Both the position numbers and the translations under genes were made by a program. This document shows positions 97 to 63,656 of a DNA stretch of 64,000 nt, one piece after another. Below the pieces are notes generated by a model. The model made no database searches, was not told where the DNA came from, and was given only the letters and a program-made list of their open reading frames with translations. The DNA lies in contig NZ_JACJRQ010000001.1 in the NCBI RefSeq assembly GCF_014697355.1, positions 310,001 to 374,000 of the forward strand, written 5' to 3'. Each line of letters opens with the position of its first letter. Within the stretch, counting starts at the first letter, position 1. This stretch comes from Nostoc calcicola FACHB-3891. GTDB lineage: Bacteria; Cyanobacteriota; Cyanobacteriia; Cyanobacteriales; Nostocaceae.

Positions 97-1515
97 TCAA
101 ACCAAACCGTGATAAATTATTTTATTTTTGAGAGTCTTTCGACTAATAACAGTTAAATTATGAGCAATAATTCCCCAGCCGACCCAACGACAAAATCCGA
201 ACTCTCCCCTATATAAGCAACGTTGTAAGCCAAAACATCGTTTCAAAAAACTGATACGTCCTTCTACTCCATTATGCCAATGACGAGCTTTTTTAAAATT
301 TCTTTTTCTTTCATGCTTGATGCGTTCTTTACTTCGATAACCACCTTTGGGTAATATGACTTCTTTGACTCCTAATAATTGTGCATAATTTTCGTTTGTT
401 TGAGAGTAAACACCTCTATCTGTAGTCACAAGTTTTGGAGATGAACCAAAGTTTTGTATATGTTGGTCAAGGCTTGGAATTAATTGTTGAGTATCGTGAG
501 GATTACCTTTGAGAATTCGATAATTGCTGACAATTCCACCATCAACTTCATCTAACCAAACTTTATGTCCAAACTCCACATCTACATTGATTTTACCTCG
601 ACATATTATATCTGTATGAGATTCAAATATACTGACAATTTTCGAGGCAGCAGGTACTTTCTCAAAATTGAAAACTCGTCTCTGAGTTTGGTCAATTACT
701 TGTAATACACGAGGGAGAAAAATTTCAACTTGTTGAAGTAGCTGATGATACTCTAGGAAATTTGAATCCTCAATAACTAACTTCACTTTTTGAGCCTGTT
801 TCCAGCTAGCTTTAGCGATCTCAATCAATTTAGAGTAGGCTTTTTCTCTTTTTTGACGACCGGATTGATTTCGCGTTTTAGATAAACTATCAATCTCTCT
901 AGAAATTCTTCTAGCTGTGCGATGACGATTCCTAAAAATACTTAAGTTAATATTTTTTGAAGTTCGCAATAAAATTTCTTTTGCTTGCGATAAAAGCCGA
1001 CTGATTACCTTGACTCCATCTACTAATAAACTGTTATCAGAGGGTAAGTGAATATTAGTAGCTACGACTGTACCATCTGTTCTTATCTTTTTACCCTGAG
1101 TTACTTGTAACTTAATTGCTATTTGAGTTAAACGTTGGTTAAATTGTAACAAGGTCTCTTGACGAATTTGATTTGACCAACGAATTAAAGTACTTTTATT
1201 GGGAAGAGGGTTAAAATAAATTCTACAAAATTTTCTTAAAACTAAACTTTCGTTAACCTTTGAAATAGTTTTTGCATAGCTCAAGCCCCGCAGGTGCTTC
1301 AGTGCTAACATTCGTAATATTACTTCAACCGGAGTTGAATTTCTCCCTGTTTTATTTGTATTGGGATAACGCTTTGATAAATCGGATTCCACTAACCGAA
1401 ACAATTCTTCATCCGAAAGTATTTTATCTATTTTAAAAATGAAATCATCCATTTCTCCAATTAACTCAATCAAAATGCTAAATTCTTTATCAAATTCATA
1501 TTTTCTACGTAACAT
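97..1515 (-). CDS. DDE transposase, ISNCY-like
   Basis: A full-length 472-residue transposase of an insertion sequence. It would catalyse DNA strand transfer through a DDE-type RNase H fold. Visible candidate catalytic positions are D147 in RTDGTVV, D366 in TTDRGVYS and E418 in NGVEGRISFLKR. The long helical Lys/Arg-rich insertion between the first two acidic residues (about 175-280), and the N-terminal region with HLRGLSYAKT, resemble ISNCY/IS1182-like transposases of cyanobacteria. No internal stop or frameshift is seen, so it could be active. I could not find convincing terminal inverted repeats within the 96 bases to the left or the roughly 100 AT-rich bases to the right, and the left end may be outside what I can delimit. 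The transposase call is firm; the family name is tentative. Confidence 0.85.
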   Translation of the reverse strand: MLRRKYEFDKEFSILIELIGEMDDFIFKIDKILSDEELFRLVESDLSKRYPNTNKTGRNSTPVEVILRMLALKHLRGLSYAKTISKVNESLVLRKFCRIYFNPLPNKSTLIRWSNQIRQETLLQFNQRLTQIAIKLQVTQGKKIRTDGTVVATNIHLPSDNSLLVDGVKVISRLLSQAKEILLRTSKNINLSIFRNRHRTARRISREIDSLSKTRNQSGRQKREKAYSKLIEIAKASWKQAQKVKLVIEDSNFLEYHQLLQQVEIFLPRVLQVIDQTQRRVFNFEKVPAASKIVSIFESHTDIICRGKINVDVEFGHKVWLDEVDGGIVSNYRILKGNPHDTQQLIPSLDQHIQNFGSSPKLVTTDRGVYSQTNENYAQLLGVKEVILPKGGYRSKERIKHERKRNFKKARHWHNGVEGRISFLKRCFGLQRCLYRGEFGFCRWVGWGIIAHNLTVISRKTLKNKIIYHGLV

Positions 1516-1854
1516 TGGATATTGGTTGAGCCTGCAATCATGTACTACTCAAAAACATACTTAAGAACGATTAACTATTAAAATTTACTCAAAAATAATT
1601 AACAAAAATTTATTTTTTCTGGAGATTTATTCATCTTTTTTATCCTCAAAGGCTCGAAGAAGAGAAAATCGCGATCGCTAATTTATTTTATAAGAGCGAA
1701 CGCCGACAAGACCCCAGAGCGATCGCATCCTTGATTGCTCTGAGGAGATATTTAGTTCAAAAGTACTATAAATTAAGAGATCAAGTTCTGGGTGGGTGCG
1801 CTTATATTTGATGTATAGCTTTTGCCATAAAGGTTTTGAGTTTCGCACCGGGAA
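1516..1854. other. intergenic, no gene seen
   Basis: AT-rich sequence between the transposase start and the small reading frame at 1855. It holds two HIP1 octamers in the 1668-1726 region. I see no start codon with a plausible reading frame and no RNA gene. The right end of the insertion sequence probably lies in here. Confidence 0.4.
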
Positions 1855-2019
1855 CTAGTCTAAACTCCAGTTAAGCAGATCCGCAAAGGGATCTGATGAG
1901 CCTGTGGAATAGTAGGTAGGGAAGGCGCTTTGCATATCTGAGCGCAAAGCCGCCCAACGTAGCGCACTGGCTTGGACGCTACCATCTTTATTCCAATAGC
2001 CTGCAAATTTAGAAACCAT
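1855..2019 (-). CDS. 54-residue protein of unknown function (possible gene tail)
   Basis: A short reading frame not previously flagged by length. It begins MVSKFAGYWNKDGSVQ and ends FADLLNWSLD. Composition is sensible (four Trp, no low complexity) and codon use resembles its neighbours. It could be a small conserved cyanobacterial protein or the tail of a larger gene. The last codons and the 3' flank lie in a 35-bp sequence (1839-1873) repeated exactly at 56790-56824. I do not recognise the family. No clear ribosome-binding site precedes the ATG. Confidence 0.4.
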   Translation of the reverse strand: MVSKFAGYWNKDGSVQASALRWAALRSDMQSAFPTYYSTGSSDPFADLLNWSLD

Positions 2020-50510: not shown

Positions 50511-53174
50511 TTAATTATTAATCGCACTCTTAACCAGAATTACTGTACTTTCTACACCAGATGCGATCGCTTCTGGAATATTACCTTGAATCGCCTGCTG
50601 CAACAATCCCTCACGGGAAGCGCCCAAAACTACAACATCATAACCTTCAGTTTTCACTAATTTAATCACACCTTCGGCAACTGAATCAGCTTGTACTGGA
50701 AGAGCAACAACGGTACTAGACAATTGACGGCGACGCATTAACTGACGGATAGCATTTTCTAAAACTGTCATGTTTGGCTGCAACTCAGATGGCTTAAACA
50801 CCTGTGTCAGGCGAATTTGTGCTTCATTCCCCAAGGTGACTAAAGCCGGAAGCAATTTAATAGCTACTACTGAATTGGGACCACCAGCCATAGGGACTAG
50901 CCAGCGGTTGAAGTGGGGAGTGGAGGGAGACGCGGAAAATTGTTTCCCCGTGTCGCCGCGTCCCCGTGTCCCCGCGTCTTCCTGAGTTTTGCCTAACTTT
51001 ACTAAAACTACTTCGCAGGTGGCTTGGCGAATTATGGTGTCTACAACGTTGCCAAAAATCCGACCTGGGGTAGATGTGCTACCTTTCCATCCCATTAGAA
51101 TCAGGTCGATGTGTCCTTCGTTGACTGTCTCCAAAATTGCTTGGGCGACATCGTGGGTAACTCGAATTTGTGTATGCAGAGGAATTTGCCACTTTTTGGC
51201 TAAAACTTCTGCTTGTCGGAGCAAACGGCGGCTTTTTGCTGTTCTTACCTGTGTTTCAGATGGGGAACTGTGGCGTGACACCAGCATTACTTGGATACAC
51301 TCTATTTCATAATGGCGATCGCGGGCAATAGCTGCTGCCATTTGCAATAATATAGCCGCCGTTTCTGGGTTAGCTACTGGCACTAATAATCTACCTCTAC
51401 CGATACTGGGCGATCGCGTTTGGTAAACTACATAAGAGGGTTCTGGTCGCAGTTTGGGTTTCCTGTCATCACCATTAAGATGGTCTGCTTCCGCCCGAAT
51501 AATATCTGCACGGGTAATAATTCCAATCAGTTTTCGTCCCTGCACTACTGGTAAGCGACTGATTTGATAGCGGTCAAGTAAATACAGTACATTGCTCAAG
51601 GTGTGGATTGGTGTTACTGTCATAGGGACAGCCGTCATCACTTCTTTTAAAGAAATATCATTGGCTAAATTGCGTTCGCGGATTTTCAACAAATCTGATT
51701 GCGTGATAATTCCTACCAATTTACTATCTTCTACTACGGGAAAACCCCGATGATGGGAACGAGCAAAAGCTTGCATTGCTTCTTCCAAACTCATCTCTGC
51801 ATCGAGAGTTTCCACTCGTTCTTGCATCACATCTTTGGCGGTTAACTTAGTTAATGCTCCCTCCACAGCAACTTCTGTGGTGAGAGTAATACCTTTCAAT
51901 TCCAAAAGTTTCTCATAAAGCGAACCAGGCACCGCCTTCTCAGCAACCAAGTAAGCTGCTACAGAAACAATCATTAAAGGTAGCACCAGATTGAAATCTG
52001 TAGTCATCTCAAACACAATCACAATTGCCGTGATTGGCACCTTGGAGACGGCGCTAAAAAATCCACCCATACCCGCTAGGGCATAAGTAGTGGGCGAACC
52101 AACTCCTGTGACGTGGAACTCAAATACGCCGATGATATGTCCTAAACAAGAACCCAAAATCAAACTAGGAGCGAATAAACCCCCTGGCGCTCCGGAACCA
52201 AATGCTACCAGTGTGAGGATGAACTGTGCCCCAAAGGCGATCGCTGCCACAGTCGGATGGGCTACTCCAGTAATTACATACTCTCTCAACCCAGTATTAT
52301 CACGGAAAGATGCGGGGAGCATTGCCACGACAACACCAGACATAAATCCTGCCAAAGCCACCCGCAGCGGTAAGCTGATGTGTAATTGTTGATAGCATTT
52401 AATACTAAATATTATTCCCCGATTAAATAATGCACCCAGTAAACCTGCCAAAATACCCAATACCAGGAAAAAGGGAATTTCGGGGATCGAGAATTGGCTG
52501 GAAGATTGCACCAATTGCAGATTCAAGTCTAAGCTGCCACCACCTAAAAGCCGGGATATCACCCCACCAATAAACGAAGCGATAATGGCAGTTCCCAAAG
52601 TCAGCCCCGATAAATCGTGGAGTAACTCTTCCACGATAAATAATACACCTGCTATGGGGGCATTGAAAGCAGCTGCCAAACCTGCACCCGCGCCCGCTGC
52701 AATCATTTGCCGCCGATGATCCGGGGAAGTGGGAACCCAGCGACTCAAACCTGCTGCTAAACCTGCCCCCACTTGGACAGTAGGGCCTTGGCGTCCCAGC
52801 GTCATACCCGAACCGATGGCGATCGCAGCACTGAGTAACTTCACACCAGCCACGCGCCAAGATAACCTGATGGGTACATTAGCTAAAGTTGCTTTAACTT
52901 GGGGAATACCGCTACCAGCAGCCTCTGGTGCCAACCTTTCCACCAACCAACCAGCCACAAACCCCAGAACAAGACCAACTATCGGTAGTGCCAGCCACAC
53001 AGGTAAAAGCCTAGTACTGTGGACTCGCCAAGTCCCCAGCCATCCCGAACCCACTTTCAGCAACACCGCAGATAAGGCAGCAACCAAACCGATAATACAA
53101 GCTTCGGCGATCGCTAAACCTCTTCTAGGCTGCCACCAAGTGCGAAAGCGCTGATTCAGAACAGGAAGAGACAT
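50511..53174 (-). CDS. ClC chloride channel/transporter with CBS pair and two Usp domains
   Basis: An 887-residue fusion. The ClC membrane core (about 20-430) has GSGIP at the selectivity filter, GRQGP at the second signature, and the GGLFAPS loop. The usual motif is G(K/R)EGP; here the gating Glu is Gln (Q129; codon CAA at 52788-52790, one base from GAA). CBS1 and CBS2 (about 447-565) follow, then Usp domains at about 595-720 and 760-885. A linker (EDAGTRGRGDTGK, about residues 725-737) comes from a GGGGACGCGG-type dispersed repeat read in frame. Adenine-nucleotide binding by CBS or Usp domains could regulate ion flux. If Gln is real, the gate or H+ coupling is changed. Confidence 0.9.
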   Translation of the reverse strand: MSLPVLNQRFRTWWQPRRGLAIAEACIIGLVAALSAVLLKVGSGWLGTWRVHSTRLLPVWLALPIVGLVLGFVAGWLVERLAPEAAGSGIPQVKATLANVPIRLSWRVAGVKLLSAAIAIGSGMTLGRQGPTVQVGAGLAAGLSRWVPTSPDHRRQMIAAGAGAGLAAAFNAPIAGVLFIVEELLHDLSGLTLGTAIIASFIGGVISRLLGGGSLDLNLQLVQSSSQFSIPEIPFFLVLGILAGLLGALFNRGIIFSIKCYQQLHISLPLRVALAGFMSGVVVAMLPASFRDNTGLREYVITGVAHPTVAAIAFGAQFILTLVAFGSGAPGGLFAPSLILGSCLGHIIGVFEFHVTGVGSPTTYALAGMGGFFSAVSKVPITAIVIVFEMTTDFNLVLPLMIVSVAAYLVAEKAVPGSLYEKLLELKGITLTTEVAVEGALTKLTAKDVMQERVETLDAEMSLEEAMQAFARSHHRGFPVVEDSKLVGIITQSDLLKIRERNLANDISLKEVMTAVPMTVTPIHTLSNVLYLLDRYQISRLPVVQGRKLIGIITRADIIRAEADHLNGDDRKPKLRPEPSYVVYQTRSPSIGRGRLLVPVANPETAAILLQMAAAIARDRHYEIECIQVMLVSRHSSPSETQVRTAKSRRLLRQAEVLAKKWQIPLHTQIRVTHDVAQAILETVNEGHIDLILMGWKGSTSTPGRIFGNVVDTIIRQATCEVVLVKLGKTQEDAGTRGRGDTGKQFSASPSTPHFNRWLVPMAGGPNSVVAIKLLPALVTLGNEAQIRLTQVFKPSELQPNMTVLENAIRQLMRRRQLSSTVVALPVQADSVAEGVIKLVKTEGYDVVVLGASREGLLQQAIQGNIPEAIASGVESTVILVKSAINN

Positions 53175-53189
53175 AGAGTATTTGAGAGT

Positions 53190-53315
53190 GGGGAGTGGGG
53201 AGTGGAGAAGATGAGGGGGATGAGGGGGATGGGGAGGTAGGGGAAAAGGTTAAAGGGTAAAGGGTAAAGGGATAAATTTAACCTTTCCCCCTTACCCTTT
53301 TCCCTTTCCCCCTTC
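53190..53315. repeat. purine/pyrimidine hairpin repeat, copy 2
   Basis: Upstream of the ClC gene. GATGAGGGGG units lead into a G-rich/C-rich inverted repeat (GGGGAAAAGGTTAAAGGG / CCTTTCCCCC). Nearly identical to 5589-5665 plus one extra 9-bp unit. Confidence 0.75.
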
Positions 53316-53354
53316 CTAATGCCCAATGCCCAATCCCCAATTTCCCATGCCGAC

Positions 53355-54701
53355 TTAATTACTTCTCCCGGTCGTGGATAGTCCTTCCACTATAAGAGAT
53401 GGAGTATAACAGGAACCATTCCAATCGGCATCGTTGCCGAGTGTAACTAATTGCTTGAGGGCTGCGTAGACATTACCTGCAACCATAGTATCCTTAACGC
53501 GTCCAATTACCTGACCATTTTGGACGCGGTAGCCTAAATCAACGTTGATCGAAAAATCTCCAGAAATACTGCCGCCATTACCCAGCATTTGATCGACAAT
53601 TAAGCCATCATCCAGTTGTTCAATCAACTCTTGTAGAGATAACGCTCCTGGCTGGATGAGAAAATTAAATAAACCAGGGGTGGGATAACTGCCTAAACTA
53701 GGGCGAAAACCATTTCCAGTGGTGTGAGTAGCCAGTTGTGCGCCGGTGGTGCGATCGCCATAGAAATGCTCTAAGGTTCCGTTTTGGACAAATACTAAAA
53801 ATTGGGTAGGAGTGCCTTCATCATCAAAAGGGCAACTGTAAGGGCCGGCTTCGGGATCTTGGTAGAGAGTGAGGCTAGGTGCCATGATTGGGCTACCCAG
53901 ACGTTCTGCCCACGGCGAAGCAGCTTCTAAAACTCGCTTGCCATTCAAAGCTGCTTGTACAGTACCCCATAGCATATCGGCGGCTTTAGAAGTAAACAAA
54001 ACTGGGACGCGGCCATTGGGAGATGAAACATTTTCTCTTGCCCAAATTAACCGCTGTAAAATTTGGTTAGCTAATTTGTCTGGGTGGAGTTCGCCCCGCT
54101 TGGTTTGACCATCGGAAACACTCAAAAAATCATCACCGCGCACCAATTCTGCCGATATGTAGCAGCTGAGGGTAGTATCAGTGTAGTGACAATCTAAACC
54201 TTTAGTGTTCACTAGCCTAGTGGTTTCCACATCACATTCCCAGTCGCCGTTGCAGACAACATCAGGATAAGCATCGCGGATAAGTGCGATCGCTTCCTTG
54301 CCCCAGTCTACCAAAACCTCTATCGACACACTTGTTCCTAAATCTGGGTAAGATGGCTGAAAATTAGAGCCTAATTCCACTAGTTCCGGTTGATTAAGTT
54401 GACTCAAAGCCAAAGCTTTTTCCACCATCACCTGGGCTGGGACAGAACCATAAGCCACCGTCAGTCCTGGACGCCCATTTCGCCAAAGCCGCAGCGCTGT
54501 ACCTTCAGATTGGCTGGTTTCTAGCTGCTTGAGTCGGTTTGCCTCAAAAAAAACTGGACGAGAAAGCGAGTGCGACTGATACACCTCAGCTGCTTCTGCT
54601 CCAGATTTGATCGCTAGTTCCAGCAGTTCTTCTGCTAGTGTATCTTTTGACAAATTTTCAGAACCCATGACCGTTAGTGAATTGTGGATTTTGAACCCCA
54701 T
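53355..54701 (-). CDS. pmbA: TldD/PmbA-family protein (PmbA/TldE-like)
   Basis: A 448-residue member of the TldD/PmbA family, whose heterodimer is a metalloprotease degrading unfolded peptides and processing natural-product precursors. The core has GAEAAEVYQSHS near the N-terminus, PVLFTSKAADML mid-protein, and SISGDFSINVDLGYRVQNGQ then DTMVAGNVYAAL near the end. The TldD HExxxH zinc motif is absent, which fits the PmbA/TldE partner. The partner TldD is not in the window. Two ATG candidates (54701, 54668); the second starts MGSENLSKD. Neither has a clear ribosome-binding site. Confidence 0.85.
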   Translation of the reverse strand: MGFKIHNSLTVMGSENLSKDTLAEELLELAIKSGAEAAEVYQSHSLSRPVFFEANRLKQLETSQSEGTALRLWRNGRPGLTVAYGSVPAQVMVEKALALSQLNQPELVELGSNFQPSYPDLGTSVSIEVLVDWGKEAIALIRDAYPDVVCNGDWECDVETTRLVNTKGLDCHYTDTTLSCYISAELVRGDDFLSVSDGQTKRGELHPDKLANQILQRLIWARENVSSPNGRVPVLFTSKAADMLWGTVQAALNGKRVLEAASPWAERLGSPIMAPSLTLYQDPEAGPYSCPFDDEGTPTQFLVFVQNGTLEHFYGDRTTGAQLATHTTGNGFRPSLGSYPTPGLFNFLIQPGALSLQELIEQLDDGLIVDQMLGNGGSISGDFSINVDLGYRVQNGQVIGRVKDTMVAGNVYAALKQLVTLGNDADWNGSCYTPSLIVEGLSTTGRSN

Positions 54702-55176
54702 ATCAACGCCAACAGACGCAGATAATTATCCAAAAAACCATCAGCGCATCTTTGCAGCTGCAATTTTCAACAACAGATCAACACTGATGGACGCAGATAA
54801 TTATCCCAAATCATTGTCATGTCTCAACGTTTCTCAGGCGATCGCAATTTTCGGTCATTAGTCATTAGGAAGGGGGAAAGGGGAAGGGGTAAGGGGGAAA
54901 GGTTAAATTTATCCCTTTACCGACCTTCGGTCGAGGGAATAGGGAACAGGCAACAGGCAACAGTAAAGATTTTTGGTGAGACGCGGAAATTGTTGCCTGT
55001 TTCCTCGACCAACAATCAAAGGTCAAAAGCCCTGCCTCCAAGTTGAGATTGCGTGGGGCGGGGTTTAAATCCCCGTTCCACACCAACACTTATGCCTGTT
55101 GCCTGTTGCCTTTAACCTTTACCCTTTACCCTTTAACCTTTTCCCCTACCTCCCCATCCCCCTCATCTCCCCATTT
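54702..55176. other. 475-bp repeat-rich intergenic region
   Basis: No gene is supported. Two 19-bp copies of GACGCAGATAATTATCC-type sequence occur at about 54715-54740 and 54790-54810. A G-rich/C-rich tract lies at 54869-54930. A hairpin (GGCGGGGTTTAAATCCCCG) lies at about 55056-55074. A C-rich tract similar to the hairpin repeats runs to 55150. The tract continues toward the Tab2-like gene end. Confidence 0.55.
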
Positions 55177-56037
55177 TCAAAGATTAACCTCTTGCAACAG
55201 CCAAAAACCAGCAAATGATTCCGCTTTCGGATCGGACTGTACACCTAGAAAATGCACTCCATTAGCTTTTTGCTTAGCTTCTTCAAAACCTTTGGCCTCT
55301 GCTAAAGTTTGAGATTTTTTGATATTTGCCACAATCCAGCTTTCAGTAACACCAGTTTCTAAAAGCAATTTCGCCTCTTCGCTAGTATCAACTTTCAAAA
55401 AAGCCAACTCCAAACCAGACATCCAGCCCGCCAAAGGCAACGCTCTAGGTGAGAAAATCAAAACACCAGGAATACGGGTTTCGGGTGATACTCGCGCCAA
55501 CTCTAGCGGGAAAGCTTCACCAAAGCCAATTTCCCACTCTGACATCTCTGCTAAATCCTCGGCTGCTAAGCTCACAAATACCCACTGCTGCCCTTCCAAA
55601 GCATCTGGTAAACGTTGCGGCAAAGGTTTCTCCAACCTGACTGATGGATTAGTTCCCCCTTGATATCCCGATTCTTGAGGATACACTTCCTGCATCCGCT
55701 GTTCTAACCATTGGTTGAGAATCAAAGTGCGGCGGCTAGGTTGGGCGGGAATCCCCAAGTCTTGGCAAGCTTTCGTAATCATATTGTTCATTTGGCGGCG
55801 GAAAAAGCGAATTTTAATTGGCGCTTTTCCAGCTTTGTCAATAGCCTCTTGCAATGCTGTCCGCAACCAGCCCGAATTTACCTGGGTACTGGGGCAATAT
55901 TGAGCATAGCGAAACAAAGAATCTGCTTTTGTATTGGTATCCAAGGGACTTTCACAGACTAAGACTTCCCAAACTTTTTTTTGATTGGCGTCCAAAATCG
56001 GACGAGAGTAAAAATCGACTTCCCAAATACTGCCCAT
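55177..56037 (-). CDS. Tab2/Atab2-family RNA-binding protein (DUF1092)
   Basis: A 286-residue protein of the Tab2/Atab2 (DUF1092) family of cyanobacteria and chloroplasts. It starts MGSIWEVDFYSRPILDANQK, characteristic of this family. KVWEVLVCESP and the basic stretch KIRFFRRQMNNMITKACQ follow. The C-terminal half (WVFVSLAAEDLAEMSEWEIG, ARALPLAGWMSG-like) has the conserved domain. In algae Tab2 binds psaB mRNA and is needed for photosystem I translation; a related role in cyanobacteria is inferred. Length is normal. Confidence 0.9.
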   Translation of the reverse strand: MGSIWEVDFYSRPILDANQKKVWEVLVCESPLDTNTKADSLFRYAQYCPSTQVNSGWLRTALQEAIDKAGKAPIKIRFFRRQMNNMITKACQDLGIPAQPSRRTLILNQWLEQRMQEVYPQESGYQGGTNPSVRLEKPLPQRLPDALEGQQWVFVSLAAEDLAEMSEWEIGFGEAFPLELARVSPETRIPGVLIFSPRALPLAGWMSGLELAFLKVDTSEEAKLLLETGVTESWIVANIKKSQTLAEAKGFEEAKQKANGVHFLGVQSDPKAESFAGFWLLQEVNL

Positions 56038-56267
56038 GTTTTACGGTAAAAATTTGGCTGTTATATTTTCCTGATATCTCGATCATACGAGTGTTCGGGC
56101 AGCATGGGGAATAAGGGAGTGGGGATTGGGGAGATGAGGGGGATGAGGGGGATAAGGGAGATGAGAATCAAACTTTTGAACCTCTGAGCTTCGTCGTTGA
56201 ACCTTTGAGCTTCGTCCCTGAACCTTTGAATTACGATAATGGTAAAAGACCCCACGGAGGTAAATGA

Positions 56268-56600
56268 ATGCAACTAGAAGATTATTTTGAGTTTTTAGAC
56301 CCAGATGACATCCGTATCAAAGGCCATCGCATTGGTATTGATAACGTGATTCAATATTACCTGCAAGGATATTCACCAGAGCAAATTCTAGAGGAATTAC
56401 CTTCCCTGAATTTAGAGAAAATTTACGCAACGCTTACTTACTACCTACATAATCGTCTTGAAATAGATGCTTATATGTTGCGGTTAGCAAAGTGGCGAGA
56501 ACAGCGCTATCAAGAATCATCAGCTAATCCTTCACCTTTAATGCAACGTTTAAGAGCATTAAAAGCGCAACGTGACCAAGAGTTACTAAACCGTTTGTGA
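56268..56600 (+). CDS. DUF433 antitoxin
   Basis: A 110-residue protein with a DUF433 helix-turn-helix domain: RIKGHRIGIDNVIQYYLQGYSP then EQILEELPSLNLEKIYATLTYYL, the pattern of antitoxins in DUF433-DUF5615 modules. GGAGG eight bases upstream of the ATG (56268) is a strong ribosome-binding site. It overlaps the toxin start by four bases (translational coupling). It should bind its operator and neutralise the toxin. With the toxin truncated, its function is in doubt. Confidence 0.88.
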   Translation: MQLEDYFEFLDPDDIRIKGHRIGIDNVIQYYLQGYSPEQILEELPSLNLEKIYATLTYYLHNRLEIDAYMLRLAKWREQRYQESSANPSPLMQRLRALKAQRDQELLNRL

Positions 56601-56791
56601 AAGTACGTTTTCTGCTGGATGAAAATTTGTCACCTAAGCTGAAGACAGCTGTTTTGCGCTTCAATCCAGCAATAGATATTTTGCGTGTAGGTGATGCCGA
56701 AGCACCGCCATTAGGTACGCTTGACCCAGAGATCCTGCGCTACCTGGAATTATCCCAACGAATATTGGTTACAGACAACCGCAGTCTCTAG
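56597..56791 (+). pseudogene. truncated DUF5615 PIN-like toxin
   Basis: A 64-residue frame with a GTG start. It begins VRFLLDENLSPKLK, where the family has its first acidic residues (DEN). It ends LRYLELSQRILVTDNRSL, then stops at 56789-56791. Full-length DUF5615 proteins are typically near 110 residues and continue after TDNR with a second half carrying further conserved residues. The stop coincides with the first bases of a 35-bp repeat (56790-56824) also found at 1839-1873. The nuclease half is missing, so the toxin is probably inactive. Confidence 0.8.
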
Positions 56792-56824
56792 TTTCGCACC
56801 GGGAACTAGTCTAAACTCCAGTTA
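56790..56824. repeat. 35-bp dispersed repeat, copy 2
   Basis: Exact copy of 1839-1873, starting AGTTTCGCACCGGGAACTAG. Here it truncates the DUF5615 gene. The complement encodes ...NWSLD followed by a stop, like the end of the small frame at 1855-2019. Confidence 0.85.
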
Positions 56825-56903
56825 TCCGCAATGCTTAACTGGATAGCTGTTCAGATGCCGTGATGAGTATCGAAGAGATCGATGTCATGATCCTAACTAT
56901 TTA

Positions 56904-57896
56904 TTAACGCCTCAATTGGTACTCTTGAATAGTCTGTTGTCTAAAAAGTGAATAAAGTGTCAACCCACCAATTATGGTTCCTAAAGGAAATCCAAATAAT
57001 AACCATAAACTTACTAAGACTGAAAAGATCCAAAGCTTGCGACGTAAAATCAATATGCCAGATGCTGCAATCATACAAGCCAGAAAAAATACTAAAAAAT
57101 GTAGAAACAAAAAAGAAATATCATTACTACTTTTCACTCCGTATATCACATCTAATTGTTCTAATTTTATTCTTGAAATATTCAGAGACAATGTATTGTC
57201 ATAAGCCTTAAAAACACCGTATGCAATATTAGTAAATGCGACTAAAGTAACTATATCAATATTTCCTTGAATAGGATTAGATCTATTTTTCGCCAATGCA
57301 ATTCTTAAATAATTTTTCGCTGCATTAATGTTTTTTTTTATTATCGGTACAAGATATTCTGGAAGATTTTCTAATTGAATTGCATTACGCCCAAAATTAT
57401 ACGCAGTCTCAACGGATCGCCCTGCGCCTAGAGCATCGTAAAAACCTACGGAGAATTTAACTGCTGCCTTATCTCCAATTAACTCACTCATACCAATGAC
57501 GTAACCGATGTGTTGGACAATAGCATTAGCTTGCTTCTCTGAATAGCAAGCATTGAGCACAACACATTCGACATGCTCCTTACACAACTCAAATAAATCT
57601 GCCAATGCTTCTGTACTTACTACCTTTTCACGACCAGTCTCTTTATCTTCTAGAACAAGCCCTTCTGTCCCGGAACCATGACCGCAGAAGTGAACAATAT
57701 GTGGTTCAAAGTCTAGCAAAGCACGGCGTAGTTCATCCGTGCCTACAGCCCATTTTTGTTCGAGTTTGAAATAGTCTCGATGCTTTGAGCGTCGTAATCC
57801 CTCATCAATCTCACGTACTTCTAAATCCAAACGCAGCCTTTTTTGGTTAATAGGGTTTGCAGCTAAAACAAGAATCGTCCTGACTGTATTGCTCAT
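56904..57896 (-). CDS. membrane-anchored CHAT (caspase-like) protease
   Basis: A 330-residue protein. Residues 1-175 form a CHAT domain (caspase HetF-associated with TPRs): it begins VRTILVLAANP and has H73 in CGHGSG and C117 in LNACYS, the His-Cys dyad. The tail has about three membrane segments (about 205-225, 255-285, 290-320: FLFLHFLVFFLACMIAASGI, LWIFSVLVSLWLLFGFPLG) and ends with a charged cytoplasmic tail. CHAT proteases in bacteria are effectors in anti-phage or cell-death systems, often with a sensor gene. No sensor is adjacent; a damaged toxin-antitoxin pair lies downstream. The start at 57896 is the second ATG, chosen because family-like sequence begins there. Confidence 0.78.
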   Translation of the reverse strand: MSNTVRTILVLAANPINQKRLRLDLEVREIDEGLRRSKHRDYFKLEQKWAVGTDELRRALLDFEPHIVHFCGHGSGTEGLVLEDKETGREKVVSTEALADLFELCKEHVECVVLNACYSEKQANAIVQHIGYVIGMSELIGDKAAVKFSVGFYDALGAGRSVETAYNFGRNAIQLENLPEYLVPIIKKNINAAKNYLRIALAKNRSNPIQGNIDIVTLVAFTNIAYGVFKAYDNTLSLNISRIKLEQLDVIYGVKSSNDISFLFLHFLVFFLACMIAASGILILRRKLWIFSVLVSLWLLFGFPLGTIIGGLTLYSLFRQQTIQEYQLRR

Positions 57897-57960
57897 GAAA
57901 ATATAAAACAAATATTTTGATGTAGGAAGGTAGATAGGTAATAGTCTAAAGTTCTCTCAA

Positions 57961-58608
57961 TCATTTCTCACGATTAATCCAAACGGCTCTCAAGCCAGCT
58001 GCTTTGGCTCCGTAATAATCTTCCACAATACTATCGCCAACATGCCATGCTGCTTCGGGGGAACATTTATGTTTTTTTAAAGCAATGGCAAAAATTTCAG
58101 GATCTGGTTTAGCTGCACGTACCTGGGTAGAAATGGTAACAGAACTAAAAAACTCTCTCAATCCCAAACTTTGCAATACTGAGTAAATCCGAGAATCAAA
58201 ATTAGACAGCACCCCCAAAGTAACCCCCAACCGTCGCCAGTTAATTAAAGCTGGTACGACATCAGGATAGACAAACCACGGTTCACCAGTACCAAAGTGA
58301 ATATAAAGTTCGCTAAAAAAAGCCGAAAAATCAGAAAATTGCTTGAGAACACCTGCACTTTCAAAAGTGTTCAGGGCAATTATCCGCCACCAATCAAACT
58401 CACGCTGGGGAATATCTTGCAGTTCTGCATCTGGAAATATGGGTGGCGGTGCTGTTTTAAAGCTTTGGATGAAACTTGTATTTAATGTCTCGGCGGAAAC
58501 TGTAACGCCGAATTCCTGGGCTACCTGACTATAAACTTCACCCACACTGCCTTTAACATCGAAGAGTGTGCCCACAGCATCTAAAAAAATAACTTTCGGT
58601 TGTTCCAT
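57961..58608 (-). CDS. HAD-superfamily hydrolase (HAD-IA, HDHD3-like)
   Basis: A 215-residue HAD phosphatase with a helical cap after the first motif. It begins PKVIFLDAVGTLFD: motif I, with nucleophile Asp but Val in place of the second acidic Asp (DxVGT instead of DxDGT), a known trait of HDHD3-like members that may lower phosphatase activity. LGVLSNFD (motif II), RAAKPDPEIFAIALKK (motif III Lys) and HVGDSIVEDYYGAKAAG (motif IV Asp pair) follow. The start at 58608 is preferred; the upstream in-frame ATG lies in a low-complexity tract (GGCATTGGGCAT). Substrate unknown. Confidence 0.85.
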   Translation of the reverse strand: MEQPKVIFLDAVGTLFDVKGSVGEVYSQVAQEFGVTVSAETLNTSFIQSFKTAPPPIFPDAELQDIPQREFDWWRIIALNTFESAGVLKQFSDFSAFFSELYIHFGTGEPWFVYPDVVPALINWRRLGVTLGVLSNFDSRIYSVLQSLGLREFFSSVTISTQVRAAKPDPEIFAIALKKHKCSPEAAWHVGDSIVEDYYGAKAAGLRAVWINREK

Positions 58609-58753
58609 AATGGGGACTGGGGAATGGGGCATGGGGCATTGGGCATGAGGGCATGGGATGAGGGAGATGAGGGAGCAGGGGGAGAATAACTTTTACTCTA
58701 AATTCCTAACTCCTAACTCCTAACTCCTAACTCAGGACTCCCAATACCCAATC

Positions 58754-59947
58754 TTACTTAGAAAGTGTTTCTATAATAGGACGGACTAGCCAATTAAAAC
58801 CAACTTTGAGCTGATGGTCTAAAGTTGGCAATCTGTATAAATAAGCAAGACGACGACCGATATATGCTAAAGGCCCTTCTAGTTTGATTCCTAAACCAGC
58901 GAGGGTGGCGTTGTCTTTCCCCAATGCCATCATTTCCCCTAAGTGTTGATAGCGGAAGGGAAGTAGGGGACGATTGGTAAGAGAAGCCCAGATGTTCCAA
59001 GCGGCGTAATCGGCTTGTTGGAAAGCGGCTTGGGCGGTTGCAGGGACTTGTTGTCCTTCTGCATCATGAGAATCAGCTAAATCTCCCAAAGCAAAGATTT
59101 CTGGATGCTCAAAGACTTGTAGGTTGGATGTGGTGCTGATTTGACCGCGCTGATTTTGCTTGAGGGGAAGGGATTTCACCACTGGTGCAACTCGCGTTCC
59201 CACTGTCCAAATGACTAATTCGACGGGAATTGTGTCTACTTGATTTTTATATTCTAGGGAAATTGTATCTTGACCGATTGATTCAACTTTGGTTTCTAAA
59301 TCAAGAAACACGCCACGGGCTTCTATTGCTTTTTTGGCTGCTTCACGGTTAAATTCTGGGGAAGTTCGCAAGATTTGGTCGGCGATTTCAACGAGCCGAA
59401 AGCGTCCTCTTTCACCTAGTCGATCGGCTAGCTTACAAGCTAACTCTACACCACTATAGCCAGCCCCAACGATCGCCACTCGAATTTTATCAGCATCGGA
59501 TTCTTCCAAAAATCGCAGGCGTTCTTCTAAACGATAGGCGTCGGAGATTGTCCGGAATGGGTAGGCGTGGGCTGCTGCACCAGGTACTAAATCTAGCGGT
59601 GTCTCTCCTCCTAAGGCCAGCACCAATCGATCGTAAGGAATTTCTAATCCTTCATGTAAGTTTACCCGTTGCTGGTCGATGTCAATTCCAGATACCACTC
59701 CTTGATAAAAACGTACCCCTGTACCTTGTAAAAGTTCTTCAAATGGTGGGGCGATTTCCCAGGTTTGCAGTTCGCCAGTGAGTAATTCGTAAAGAAAGGG
59801 GGAAAATAGAAAGCGATCGCTTTGATCTACCAAAACAATTTCGGGTTTTTGCGTAGATTCCCAAGGTAACTGGCTTAAACCCAGGGCTGTGTAGAGACCA
59901 CCAAAGCCTCCACCAAGGATGCAGATTCTAGAAGTTTGTTGAGTCAT
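58754..59947 (-). CDS. ndbB: type II NAD(P)H dehydrogenase / demethylphylloquinone reductase-like (NdbB)
   Basis: A 397-residue FAD flavoenzyme. The FAD-binding GxGxxG is GGGFGGLYTA at the N-terminus; a second Rossmann site VAIVGAGYSGVELA binds NAD(P)H; HPEIFALGDLAD completes FAD binding. It resembles type II NADH dehydrogenases (NDH-2), which pass electrons to quinone without pumping protons. Length and the TWEIAPPFEELL segment are like NdbB (slr1743), the demethylphylloquinone reductase of vitamin K1 synthesis. That assignment is from memory of the family and is less certain than the NDH-2 call. No C-terminal amphipathic extension is obvious. Confidence 0.82.
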   Translation of the reverse strand: MTQQTSRICILGGGFGGLYTALGLSQLPWESTQKPEIVLVDQSDRFLFSPFLYELLTGELQTWEIAPPFEELLQGTGVRFYQGVVSGIDIDQQRVNLHEGLEIPYDRLVLALGGETPLDLVPGAAAHAYPFRTISDAYRLEERLRFLEESDADKIRVAIVGAGYSGVELACKLADRLGERGRFRLVEIADQILRTSPEFNREAAKKAIEARGVFLDLETKVESIGQDTISLEYKNQVDTIPVELVIWTVGTRVAPVVKSLPLKQNQRGQISTTSNLQVFEHPEIFALGDLADSHDAEGQQVPATAQAAFQQADYAAWNIWASLTNRPLLPFRYQHLGEMMALGKDNATLAGLGIKLEGPLAYIGRRLAYLYRLPTLDHQLKVGFNWLVRPIIETLSK

Positions 59948-60295
59948 CGATTCTATGGGACGGTCAATACTAGCAGGGCAACTAATTCAAGTGTAATGAT
60001 TTCTTTCGAGCTATGTTCATGCCTCTTGAGATACGGATGATTTTAGCCCCTCTATGTCGGCAACTGCTACCCACCCAGGTTGTTGAATTTCTGTGTTTGC
60101 AAGGGGCTATTAGGATAACAAGAAAGCTTGGTGAGAATGGGGAGTGTCTATTCCATACCGCTCAAATAGCGGCAATAATTAATGCTAGTGTAGCTTGCAT
60201 ATTGTTGCAGGTAGAAAAAGATTTGCATTCCATTACACCTGCGGGCAGATGCTGACCATTCAAAGTAGTGCTATTGCTAACAAGACAAAAATGTT
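59948..60295. other. intergenic; small doubtful frame
   Basis: A frame of 80 codons (60013-60255) exists but has no recognisable domain, so I treat it as unsupported. The region should hold the promoter of the regulator at 60296. Nothing else seen. Confidence 0.4.
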
Positions 60296-60973
60296 ATGAA
60301 AATTCTTTTAGTTGAAGATGAATATCGTATTGCCAAAGCACTTGCAGAAGTACTGATCGATCAAAATTATGTTGTTGATATTGCCAGCGACGGTCAAGCA
60401 GGATGGGAGTTTGCTAAAGCCTTTCCTTATAACTTAATAGTGTTAGATTTAATGCTACCAAAGTTGGATGGTATCACTTTGTGTCGGCAACTACGGCGAG
60501 AGGGCTACTCGACACCTATTCTGTTGCTAACTGCAAAAGATACTAGCACAGACAAAGTAATCGGTTTAGATGCAGGAGCTGATGATTATGTTGTCAAACC
60601 CTTTGATTTGCAAGAACTAATGGCTCGCATTCGGGCTTTACTCAGGCGGGGAATTACTATTTTACCGCCTGTGTTTGAGTGGGAAAAATTGCGTCTAGAT
60701 CCCAGTAATTGCGAAGTAATATATAATGAACAATTAGTACATCTAACTCCCAAAGAATATCGAATTTTAGAATTATTTTTACGTCATAGCCATCAAGTGT
60801 TGAGTCGCGGCGAAATTCTCAAACATCTCTGGTCTTTTGAAGAACCACCAGGAGAAGAAACAATCAAAGTTCACATTCGGAGTTTAAGACAAAAATTAAA
60901 AATTGCTGGAGCTAGTGTAGATTTCATTGAAACTGTATACGGTTTAGGTTATCGACTCAAACAAACTTTTTAA
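60296..60973 (+). CDS. OmpR-family response regulator (RppA-like)
   Basis: A 225-residue regulator, standard length. Receiver: LVEDEYR, phospho-Asp in LIVLDLMLPKLDG, Thr in LLTAKDTS, Lys in DYVVKPFD. Winged helix: LTPKEYRILELFLRHSHQVLSR and IETVYGLGYRLKQ at the end. The kinase at 61125 follows after about 150 bp with a dispersed repeat between. It is similar in layout to the 22112/22888 pair. Confidence 0.93.
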   Translation: MKILLVEDEYRIAKALAEVLIDQNYVVDIASDGQAGWEFAKAFPYNLIVLDLMLPKLDGITLCRQLRREGYSTPILLLTAKDTSTDKVIGLDAGADDYVVKPFDLQELMARIRALLRRGITILPPVFEWEKLRLDPSNCEVIYNEQLVHLTPKEYRILELFLRHSHQVLSRGEILKHLWSFEEPPGEETIKVHIRSLRQKLKIAGASVDFIETVYGLGYRLKQTF

Positions 60974-61124
60974 AAAATTCTGTGGGTTTAAGTCACCCGC
61001 TTCTATCAAGCGCCAAGTTTTGCAGTGTGGTTAAAATCTTCATTACAAAACTTAATTACTAATTACGTTAGCGCAGCGTTAGCGACGCAGGAGCGTCATT
61101 ACGAATTACGAATTATTTAAATTC

Positions 61125-62417
61125 ATGTTTCAGGCTTTAGGCAGGCGGCTTTTATTTTCATATTTAGGTGTAATGGTAACAATTTGGGGAACTTCTACCA
61201 CAGTTGTTTATCATTTTTTATCTTATAATCTTTATGAAAAATTAGATAGTGAAATTATAAATTTAGCAAATGCAGCTTCTCACAATTTAATAGCGGCTAA
61301 AGTAGACAAGCAAGCAATTAATACTCAAATTCCGCGAGTTTTAGATAATGATGATGATGGCGATCTAGATATTCCTTGGCAAGATTTGCGTGAAAATCAT
61401 CAAGGAGTAGAATGGTTTGATGTTAATGGAATACTATTAGCAAAAGCCGGAAATTCTCTGCCGCAGAACTCATTTATTGCTAATTTTAACGTTATCCAAC
61501 ACAAAAAAAATCGCAGCATTACTATTCCTATTTATCTGCATGGTTTGAATGGTGGAGAAAAAAAGCTTCAAGGTTATGTGCGGGTGAGTGAATCTACAGA
61601 AGAATTACAAGAAGAACTAGACAGAATTTTATGGGGATTTGAGTTAGGAGGACTGATTGTCATAATTCTTAGCGGGTTGGGTGGTTGGTGGCTAACAAGA
61701 CAATCTTTGCAGCCAATTGAGCAAAGTTTCCAGCAGTTAAAGCAGTTTACTGCTGATGCTTCCCACGAGTTGCGTAGCCCTTTAACAATAGTTAAAACCT
61801 CAGTTGAGGTAATCATGAATTATCCAGAGAGAATTCATCCAGCTAATGTGAATAAGTTGGAAGCAATATCATCTGCAACTAATCAAATGACTCAATTAGT
61901 GGAAGATTTACTTTTATTGGCTCGAACTGATGCACTAACAAATACTCAAGTGATTGAATGGATAACTATTCCCTTAGATGAATTATTAGAGGATTTAGTA
62001 GAATTTTTAGAACCGCAAGCAGTATCTCAGGAAATTACTCTCAAGTCAGAAATATCGACCGAAGTTTTTATTAAAGGTGAAGCTATTCAACTCAAGCGAT
62101 TATTTTCTAATTTGTTGCAAAATGCCTTGCATTATACACCTAAAGGAGGAACTGTTATGGTTTCTCTTGTAAAACTTGAGCGACTGGTAGCAATAAATGT
62201 TCAAGATACTGGTATCGGAATTGCTCCAGAACACATTGGGCTAGTTTTTAATCGTTTTTGGAGGGCAGATCAAGCTAGAAGCCAGCGAGAGGGAGGCTTA
62301 GGTTTGGGATTAGCTATTGCCGATGCGATCGCCAGAACTCATGGCGGAGATATTACTGTCACCAGTGAAATCGGTGTTGGTAGTTGCTTTCAGGTACGTT
62401 TACCCTTAGCTTCTTAG
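61125..62417 (+). CDS. membrane sensor histidine kinase (RppB-like)
   Basis: A 430-residue kinase, partner of the regulator at 60296. TM1 is about 10-30 (LLFSYLGVMVTIWGTSTTVVY), the sensor domain 31-180 and TM2 about 182-203 (GGLIVIILSGLGGWWLT). HisKA has [16 protein letters not shown] with phospho-His. HATPase_c has LLQNALHYT, DTGIGIAPEHIGLVFNRFWRAD and GLGLGLAI. All boxes intact. The stop is one base from the convergent PepSY-like gene's stop, so the pair end back to back. Confidence 0.92.
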   Translation: MFQALGRRLLFSYLGVMVTIWGTSTTVVYHFLSYNLYEKLDSEIINLANAASHNLIAAKVDKQAINTQIPRVLDNDDDGDLDIPWQDLRENHQGVEWFDVNGILLAKAGNSLPQNSFIANFNVIQHKKNRSITIPIYLHGLNGGEKKLQGYVRVSESTEELQEELDRILWGFELGGLIVIILSGLGGWWLTRQSLQPIEQSFQQLKQFTADASHELRSPLTIVKTSVEVIMNYPERIHPANVNKLEAISSATNQMTQLVEDLLLLARTDALTNTQVIEWITIPLDELLEDLVEFLEPQAVSQEITLKSEISTEVFIKGEAIQLKRLFSNLLQNALHYTPKGGTVMVSLVKLERLVAINVQDTGIGIAPEHIGLVFNRFWRADQARSQREGGLGLGLAIADAIARTHGGDITVTSEIGVGSCFQVRLPLAS

Positions 62418-62418
62418 T

Positions 62419-62703
62419 TTAATTTTTAGGGCTTTGCCGAGTCTTTTTACCAAATAAACCAGACATACTTAATCCTGTCACCAACAATCCCAGAAGCCCT
62501 AATCCGTTCAAAATTGGATAGATTCCCTCAAGATGAAAAATTTCCCCCGTATGAATACTCAAGAGGAAGCTAGCAGGAACTCCTATACTAATAGACCACT
62601 CCCGGACAAATGTTGTTAACATCCCAGTCACTATGGTTAAAACAAGTGGCAGAGATACGATGATACCAAAGATACGATGATACTTACGAAATGAACGTTT
62701 CAT
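62419..62703 (-). CDS. small PepSY-associated membrane protein
   Basis: A 94-residue membrane protein. It starts MKRSFRKYHRIFGIIVSLPLVL, the basic-then-hydrophobic opening common in PepSY_TM/iron-uptake membrane proteins. Two or three hydrophobic segments follow (FLLSIHTGEIFHLEG between, then GLGLLGLLVTGLSMSGLF). GGAG before the ATG at 62703 supports this start over the upstream ATG (62736). It is convergent with the kinase gene. It may help metal or respiration-related membrane processes; function not established. Confidence 0.68.
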   Translation of the reverse strand: MKRSFRKYHRIFGIIVSLPLVLTIVTGMLTTFVREWSISIGVPASFLLSIHTGEIFHLEGIYPILNGLGLLGLLVTGLSMSGLFGKKTRQSPKN

Positions 62704-63167: not shown

Positions 63168-63656
63168 ATGAACCGTTTTAATCCAGTACTGATAGTGGCT
63201 GTAATTAGCCTGATGGCTTTGGTTGGATGCAACAATAGCGAAGAATCTGCTACACAGACATCACCTCCTGCGAGTTCTACCTCGGAAACAGCTGCTACAC
63301 CCGCTGCAACAACCAACCCAACGGCTGCTACACCCGCTGCAACAACCAACCCAACAGCTGGTACTCCCGCTGCAACAACCGAATTTGCTGGTTTACAGGG
63401 TGTTGTTAGCAATACGAAGACGGCAGTTGATGCGGGAAATTTTGCCAAAGCTAAAGAGGAATTTGACAAATTTGAGGATTTCTGGTCAAAAGTTGAGGAT
63501 GGAGTAAAAGCTAAATCTGCCAAAACCTACAAAGAAATTGAAGATAAAGAAGATGAGATCAAAGCAGGACTTAAAGCCTCTGCACCAAATAAACAGAAGT
63601 TATTAACAGCCTTAGAGTCCCTTAACAAGGATGTCACTAGTGTTGCTAAGCCTTAA
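63168..63656 (+). CDS. lipoprotein with Thr/Pro/Ala repeat linker
   Basis: A 162-residue predicted lipoprotein. The signal ends in lipobox LVGC with Cys21. A linker (about 25-75) has a tandem 11-residue unit (AATPAATTNPT) present about 2.5 times, encoded by 33-bp repeats. Residues 76-162 are helical and charged (KAKEEFDKFEDFWSKVED, YKEIEDKEDEI), resembling periplasmic helical-bundle proteins. GAGGAG seven bases before the ATG is a good ribosome-binding site. It is probably anchored to the outer leaflet or periplasmic face. Family unknown. Confidence 0.85.
   Translation: MNRFNPVLIVAVISLMALVGCNNSEESATQTSPPASSTSETAATPAATTNPTAATPAATTNPTAGTPAATTEFAGLQGVVSNTKTAVDAGNFAKAKEEFDKFEDFWSKVEDGVKAKSAKTYKEIEDKEDEIKAGLKASAPNKQKLLTALESLNKDVTSVAKP

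Follow-up and report, generated by a model that had tools for sequence, protein, structure and literature searches.

We found that a 64,000-nucleotide stretch of the Nostoc calcicola FACHB-3891 genome (contig NZ_JACJRQ010000001.1, positions 310,001 to 374,000; the whole stretch is referred to as the window) encodes, on the minus strand at 56904-57896, a 330-residue protein that may be a functional, lineage-specific, membrane-tethered CHAT (caspase-like) cysteine protease, an effector without its sensor; we give this reading an even chance. A tree of CHAT domains supported the placement of its protease part closest to C-terminal CHAT domains, mostly in STAND-like NTPases, suggesting that the effector module of an NLR-like system parted from its NTPase sensor and became joined to a small membrane-protein-like tail. 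The gene, which resembles the effector portion of an immune-type system set among housekeeping genes, is a unique variant within a well-known protease family whose parts are often reshuffled; one such gene does not of itself make a new system. With its flanks and relatives, the locus would document a caspase-like effector module leaving an NLR-like sensor for a membrane anchor, apparently in a mobile-element-linked event.

A CHAT protease domain joined to a predicted membrane tail

The reading frame is intact, running from an ATG at 57896 to a stop at 56904, and contains the following features.

56904-57896, minus strand: CHAT protease gene, 330 amino acids plus stop (open reading frame (ORF), Pfam, PADLOC, solved-structure match)
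57327-57896, minus strand: CHAT domain, residues 1-190, modelled with a caspase fold (Pfam, alignment, AlphaFold2 model, fold search)
57678-57680, minus strand: codon of His73, catalytic-type, in HFCGHGSG, conserved in alignments
57546-57548, minus strand: codon of Cys117, catalytic-type, in LNACYSE, conserved in alignments
56907-57326, minus strand: C-terminal tail, residues 191-330, with three or so predicted membrane helices after a basic linker (hydropathy, codon score, AlphaFold2 model)
57186-57254, minus strand: predicted membrane helix 1, residues 215-237, borderline in hydropathy (Kyte-Doolittle, AlphaFold2 model)
57048-57128, minus strand: predicted membrane helix 2, residues 257-283 (Kyte-Doolittle, AlphaFold2 model)
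56910-57032, minus strand: predicted membrane helix 3, model helix 289-329, with an FPLGTI-G--T motif common to small membrane proteins (profile comparison, AlphaFold2 model)

The Pfam model PF12770 (CHAT) matched residues 26-165 (E = 1.5e-10; 41.4 bits against a cut-off of 24) and was the sole Pfam domain found in the protein; the scan recognised no SAVED domain and no other sensor or adaptor domain. The PADLOC 'chat' profile matched at 4.3e-17, spanning only profile positions 310-451 of 498. The SAVED-CHAT structure 8tl0 was the top solved-structure match by sequence (1.5e-15) and also the top fold match of a 47-row AlphaFold2 model, in a search that hardly covered the tail; model and fold search gave the CHAT domain a caspase-like fold. 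A single-sequence model was poor (mean predicted local distance difference test score (pLDDT) 46.1) and was set aside.

The original prediction, made from the DNA letters alone, had named H73 and C117 as a caspase-like dyad. Both lie at these residues and are conserved: with the window protein included, the His was present in 61 and the Cys in all of 64 aligned proteins, and in a non-redundant set of 140 domains the counts were 136 and 139. Three rows are missing from alignment A4, namely L112, which is gapped at His73, and L101 and one of the L080 copies, which are without this residue; the invariant His of that alignment is for this reason not cited. The 330-residue product was confirmed as a predicted CHAT cysteine protease. 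Residues 52-55 (window 57732-57743) form an RxxD motif that is near-invariant in this CHAT subfamily; it reads GTDE in the window copy and is partly altered in some others.

The expected three or so membrane helices were also recovered. In the Kyte-Doolittle profile of the tail, two segments stand out clearly, with peaks near 260 and 290, and a third is borderline (213-231, 1.42); the AlphaFold2 model placed three helices in the tail, with low to fair confidence. With a codon table built from 13 window genes, which themselves score 0.192-0.301, the tail scored 0.233, inside that range, in the CHAT frame and was negative in the other five; the CHAT part, at 0.126, was positive in its own frame only. 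The CHAT part has a G+C content of 41.4% and the tail one of only 30.5%, a drop as might be seen in a mosaic gene.

The last 60 or so residues resemble small membrane proteins (about 150 amino acids) from other members of the order, which we take as a lead to a possible kinship. When a profile of these proteins built without the window tail (A3) was run, the last 67 residues were matched in one of 52 genus genomes, the window's own. The same profile matched 16 of 340 genomes of the order, outside the window always in frames of 60-199 amino acids, and therefore no second fusion was found. The tail alone, searched against 388 genomes of the order, returned besides itself only matches of E = 2.6e-4 to 0.0094. 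Scans of genome contigs with the tail and of viral sequences with the whole protein, both by exact peptide patterns that reach near relatives only, found no relative. One locus, L044, looked similar to the tail by eye; its frame holds stops and overlaps an opposite-strand ORF, and the likeness was taken as chance.

Origin of the CHAT domain

At E = 1e-10 the CHAT module was present in 42 of 59 genomes, including the source genome, which has 49 PF12770 matches in 9 Mb, with six located on a single contig (C22). The module may open a chain, close it or stand by itself, and its partners vary. Pfam scanning of 64 proteins found CHAT in 62, AAA_35 and TIR_2 in 9 each, EAD10 in 4 and EAD1 in 3; SAVED, NB-ARC and WD40 domains were seen in CHAT proteins inspected singly. 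The cyanobacterial fusions involve TIR, STAND/AAA, SAVED, WD40, EAD and membrane parts. In a wider collection, limited to the 80 top-ranking of 541 confirmed relatives, the 89 matches in these 80 loci had CHAT first in 44 cases, last in 29, alone in 9 and in the middle in 7.

The tree comprised 140 domains, obtained from 152 matches (63 including the window's, plus these 89) by removing short, shifted and more than 97%-identical domains. The window domain fell in a clade of ten (support 0.845) with eight C-terminal CHAT domains and L206. Six of the eight lie in frames of 1,056-1,425 amino acids, with weak STAND/P-loop matches where scanned, and four are preceded by a gene whose product has about 160 amino acids. 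The closest CHAT domains, 66-72% identical, belong to Nostocales proteins of about 1,400 residues (for example L054, L056, L057, L207 and L208) with an NTPase-like N-terminus and C-terminal CHAT, whereas the window protein has no NTPase part; the upstream gene of about 160 codons, carried by L054, L056, L208 and L212, is likewise missing from the window locus.

Twelve of the 140 domains, the window's included, are in chains with at least two Kyte-Doolittle segments outside CHAT. They are scattered over the tree and require nine parsimony changes, a pattern that points to several reinventions of membrane tethering among CHAT proteins and makes membrane-linked CHAT function worth testing. Pentapeptide-membrane-CHAT proteins belong to this group, as do a CHAT-NACHT-like-membrane protein (L236) and a CHAT-membrane-CarboxypepD protein (L261). 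Among the 152 matches, CHAT joined to a tail of the window type was found in no second instance.

A foreign segment at a conserved locus

In this genus the order of genes at the locus is conserved, namely Tab2, a DUF433-DUF5615 pair, a HAD hydrolase and a FAD oxidoreductase, the pair being missing or partial in some genomes. The corresponding features of the window are as follows.

56268-56600, plus strand: DUF433 protein, belonging to the ancestral locus and not to a CHAT system (Pfam, 4.8e-12; synteny)
56597-56791, plus strand: DUF5615 protein cut short, 64 amino acids; the match to relatives stops at 56783 and a foreign segment starts there (Pfam, synteny)
56790-56815, plus strand: orphan end of an insertion sequence or miniature inverted-repeat transposable element (MITE) at the left junction, 26-bp core (repeat comparison)
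56784-57954, no strand: segment missing from the compared relatives, inserted or substituted between the DUF5615 and HAD genes; right border approximate, 57955-57961 (synteny)
57961-58632, minus strand: HAD hydrolase, conserved flank, upstream of the CHAT gene on the same strand (Pfam, synteny)

None of 20 relative loci fetched contained DNA matching 56784-57954, and CHAT was a conserved member of the DUF433-DUF5615 locus in none of them. The complete segment was also found in none of 52 other genus genomes, with the best eight candidates per genome scored; when it was used as a query against 53 genus genomes, the window's own among them, only the CHAT part (64-74%) and a repeat match of about 30-45 bp were found elsewhere. 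In five loci (L150-L153 and L155) the match to the pair ends exactly at 56783. Six bases further on begins the 26-bp repeat, which matches a copy at window 1839-1873 over up to 35 bp; it is found flanking a DDE/DUF772 transposase as well (window 97-1515), and at more sites in the genus. This end is dispersed across the genus as single copies, whereas L192 and L193 have it in inverted pairs that span about 150 bp. For the right border, a 14-nucleotide repeat was considered as a second insertion-sequence end and rejected: of 900 other 60-bp stretches taken from the window, 17% match equally well.

The simplest account is that a mobile-element-linked rearrangement imported the CHAT segment and cut DUF5615, and the proximity of the two would then be an accident. 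The module had been described as truncated, and it is: in L151-L153 the DUF5615 frame runs about 57 amino acids beyond the end of the window match. Stops inside the frame in L154 and L155 show that the pair has decayed in some relatives too. A tie between protease and toxin-antitoxin pair was not supported, as the pair is ancestral and the CHAT segment arrived later; judged from synteny, the 'damaged' pair is an insertion scar and not a partner of CHAT.

Comparison with described systems

The structure 8tl0 shares its CHAT fold and dyad with the window protein, which differs in having a membrane tail and no SAVED sensor. CalpL, a CRISPR-linked protease effector, is described as a Lon protease with SAVED, and hence a parallel only. 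HetF of Anabaena is reported to be a membrane-anchored cyanobacterial CHAT protein, which resembles the window protein but has tetratricopeptide repeats, one predicted membrane segment and a role in development and division. Another likeness is to the EACC1 and EACC2 systems, where a caspase domain precedes a C-terminus that varies: transmembrane helices are present in at least 33% of the caspase proteins of EACC1 systems (PMC7159879), and EACC2 caspase tails include multi-transmembrane domains (PMC8195603). These systems comprise several genes, however, including a partner component that is constant, and none such was recognised at the window locus; the EACC1-associated caspase model NF047832, run on the window protein only, gave 16.5 bits against a cut-off of 140. 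Transmembrane helices are also reported, in PMC8283722, for 67 of 473 cyanobacterial orthocaspases. DdvA (8rw5, 8rot), a transmembrane anti-sigma factor and by its title a regulator, is much larger, the matched stretch covering chain residues 800-991. A group of multi-helix proteins (L226, L229, L235, L243, L265, L275 and L280) shares the CHAT subfamily and has 4-7 hydrophobic segments, but in the opposite order, with the membrane part N-terminal and CHAT last.

A CHAT domain followed by a three-helix tail was not found described in the open-licence literature searched. The gene had been called the best candidate for undescribed biology in the window. That goes too far, since proteins of the CHAT/caspase type with a link to the membrane, such as HetF and those of EACC1/EACC2, are already a described kind. 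The original prediction had also named outcomes that would speak against it. Homologues did prove scattered and without conserved neighbours, whereas the dyad was kept and membrane prediction held, and we regard the interpretation as a whole as partly supported.

Proposed mechanism and alternative explanations

A basic linker precedes helix 1 and an RRK loop joins helices 2 and 3, which by the positive-inside rule suggests that the protease faces the cytosol. The protein would be anchored on that side of the membrane, would be activated when it clusters or through a partner acting in trans from another locus, and would then cleave a membrane-near protein or itself. The clustering step is proposed because 8tl0 forms a filament, according to its title, and because of published ideas on EACC1/EACC2 caspases, which are proposed to act near the membrane with autoproteolysis suggested (PMC7159879; PMC8195603). 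A one-protein death switch needing neither gasdermin nor separate sensor, in which clustering at the membrane led to self-cutting and the freed three-helix part then did the membrane damage, strikes us as a long shot.

Several observations weigh against a functional tethered effector. The gene with its tail is a singleton, present in one genome among those searched, and gives no handle on selection. R52, an Arg in 130 of 140 domains, is Gly in the window copy, and D55, an Asp in 133, is Glu; both positions are changed only in the window and L067, and relaxed constraint on the window CHAT is therefore possible. The codon score of the CHAT part lies below those of all 13 table-defining genes. 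The node uniting the window with the eight C-terminal CHAT domains, L206 excluded, has a support of only 0.462. As to the tail, it matches small membrane proteins only weakly (E = 8.7e-4; hhalign 92.7% from a four-row profile), and no Pfam model reaches its cut-off on it. The occurrence in one genome, the two residue changes and the low codon score would fit a stranded fragment without present function, an effector domain left by a mobile-element rearrangement and still undecayed, and so would the orphan insertion-sequence end at the border, the lack of a recognised sensor or adaptor, and a start with no promoter-like site directly upstream, in a region holding 3 such sites against a shuffle mean of 5.3. 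The fully open frame, the intact dyad and the coding-like character of both halves in a single frame speak against it; we hold it to be rather unlikely, yet keep it in view because of the two residue changes.

The remaining alternatives fared worse than a membrane-tethered effector. A protease paired with a pore-forming partner is the known logic of bacterial gasdermin loci. Such a partner had been suggested here, but Pfam gave no candidate among 14 ORFs of at least 150 amino acids on window 41,695-63,656 (CHAT included; shorter ORFs mostly left out; the genome elsewhere not searched), and the insertion is unique, so that there is no conserved neighbour; we consider this very improbable. A membrane regulator like HetF or DdvA, using CHAT for regulated signalling or cell division and not for killing, would account for the anchor, but the NCBIfam HetF model NF045509, whose cut-off is 1200 bits, gave 20.7, the scanned neighbours included no recognised sigma factor or divisome gene, and the CHAT gene, unlike a core regulator, is not conserved in the genus, which leaves this improbable. 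A three-gene toxin-antitoxin-protease unit has adjacency only in its favour: relatives have the pair at the locus without CHAT, and the CHAT segment begins where the pair breaks. Synteny refutes it as an ancestral unit, and we find it barely credible.

Neighbouring genes and related CHAT proteins

As had been noted, CHAT has no evident partner beside it: none was recognised among the 14 scanned ORFs, and no sensor NTPase of the STAND/NLR kind was found in them or in the protein itself by Pfam. The other neighbours encode an ABC transporter, a PPC-domain protein, a kinase-WD40 protein, an O-antigen ligase-like protein, a glycosyltransferase, a CLC channel, TldD/PmbA, Tab2, HAD, an oxidoreductase, a response regulator and a histidine kinase; a 162-residue frame at 63168 has no Pfam match. 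PADLOC, run on seven neighbours and the transposase (eight proteins, ORFs left of 50.5 kb lying outside), gave receiver and kinase matches only (SduA 2.9e-6, PDC-M60B 0.0027, PDC-M60C 0.0055 and PDC-M43B 7.1e-6). When ORFs of at least 80 amino acids in window 52,001-62,500 were compared with 141 loci, none besides CHAT was shared with the CHAT sister loci; one window gene, the histidine kinase, matched two other loci.

The gene for a protein of about 160 amino acids followed by one for a STAND-like protein of about 1,400 with C-terminal CHAT recurs in Nostocales as a two-gene pair, a candidate immune-type system.

L054, 361-5564: two-gene pair
L056, 422-5561: two-gene pair
L208, 1521-6564: two-gene pair
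L212, 1559-6561: two-gene pair, CHAT protein split

The L054 copy of the smaller protein has no Pfam or PADLOC match, and in the two STAND-like-CHAT proteins scanned PADLOC recognises the CHAT part only. The CHAT-membrane-CarboxypepD_reg protein L261, whose CHAT is 57% identical to the window's, comes from a contig that binning assigns to candidate division KSB1, reflecting either horizontal transfer or a binning error. The seven multi-helix proteins have frames of about 750-820 amino acids; the dyad His is replaced in L229, and pentapeptide repeats are present in all four of those scanned (L226, L235, L243 and L265).
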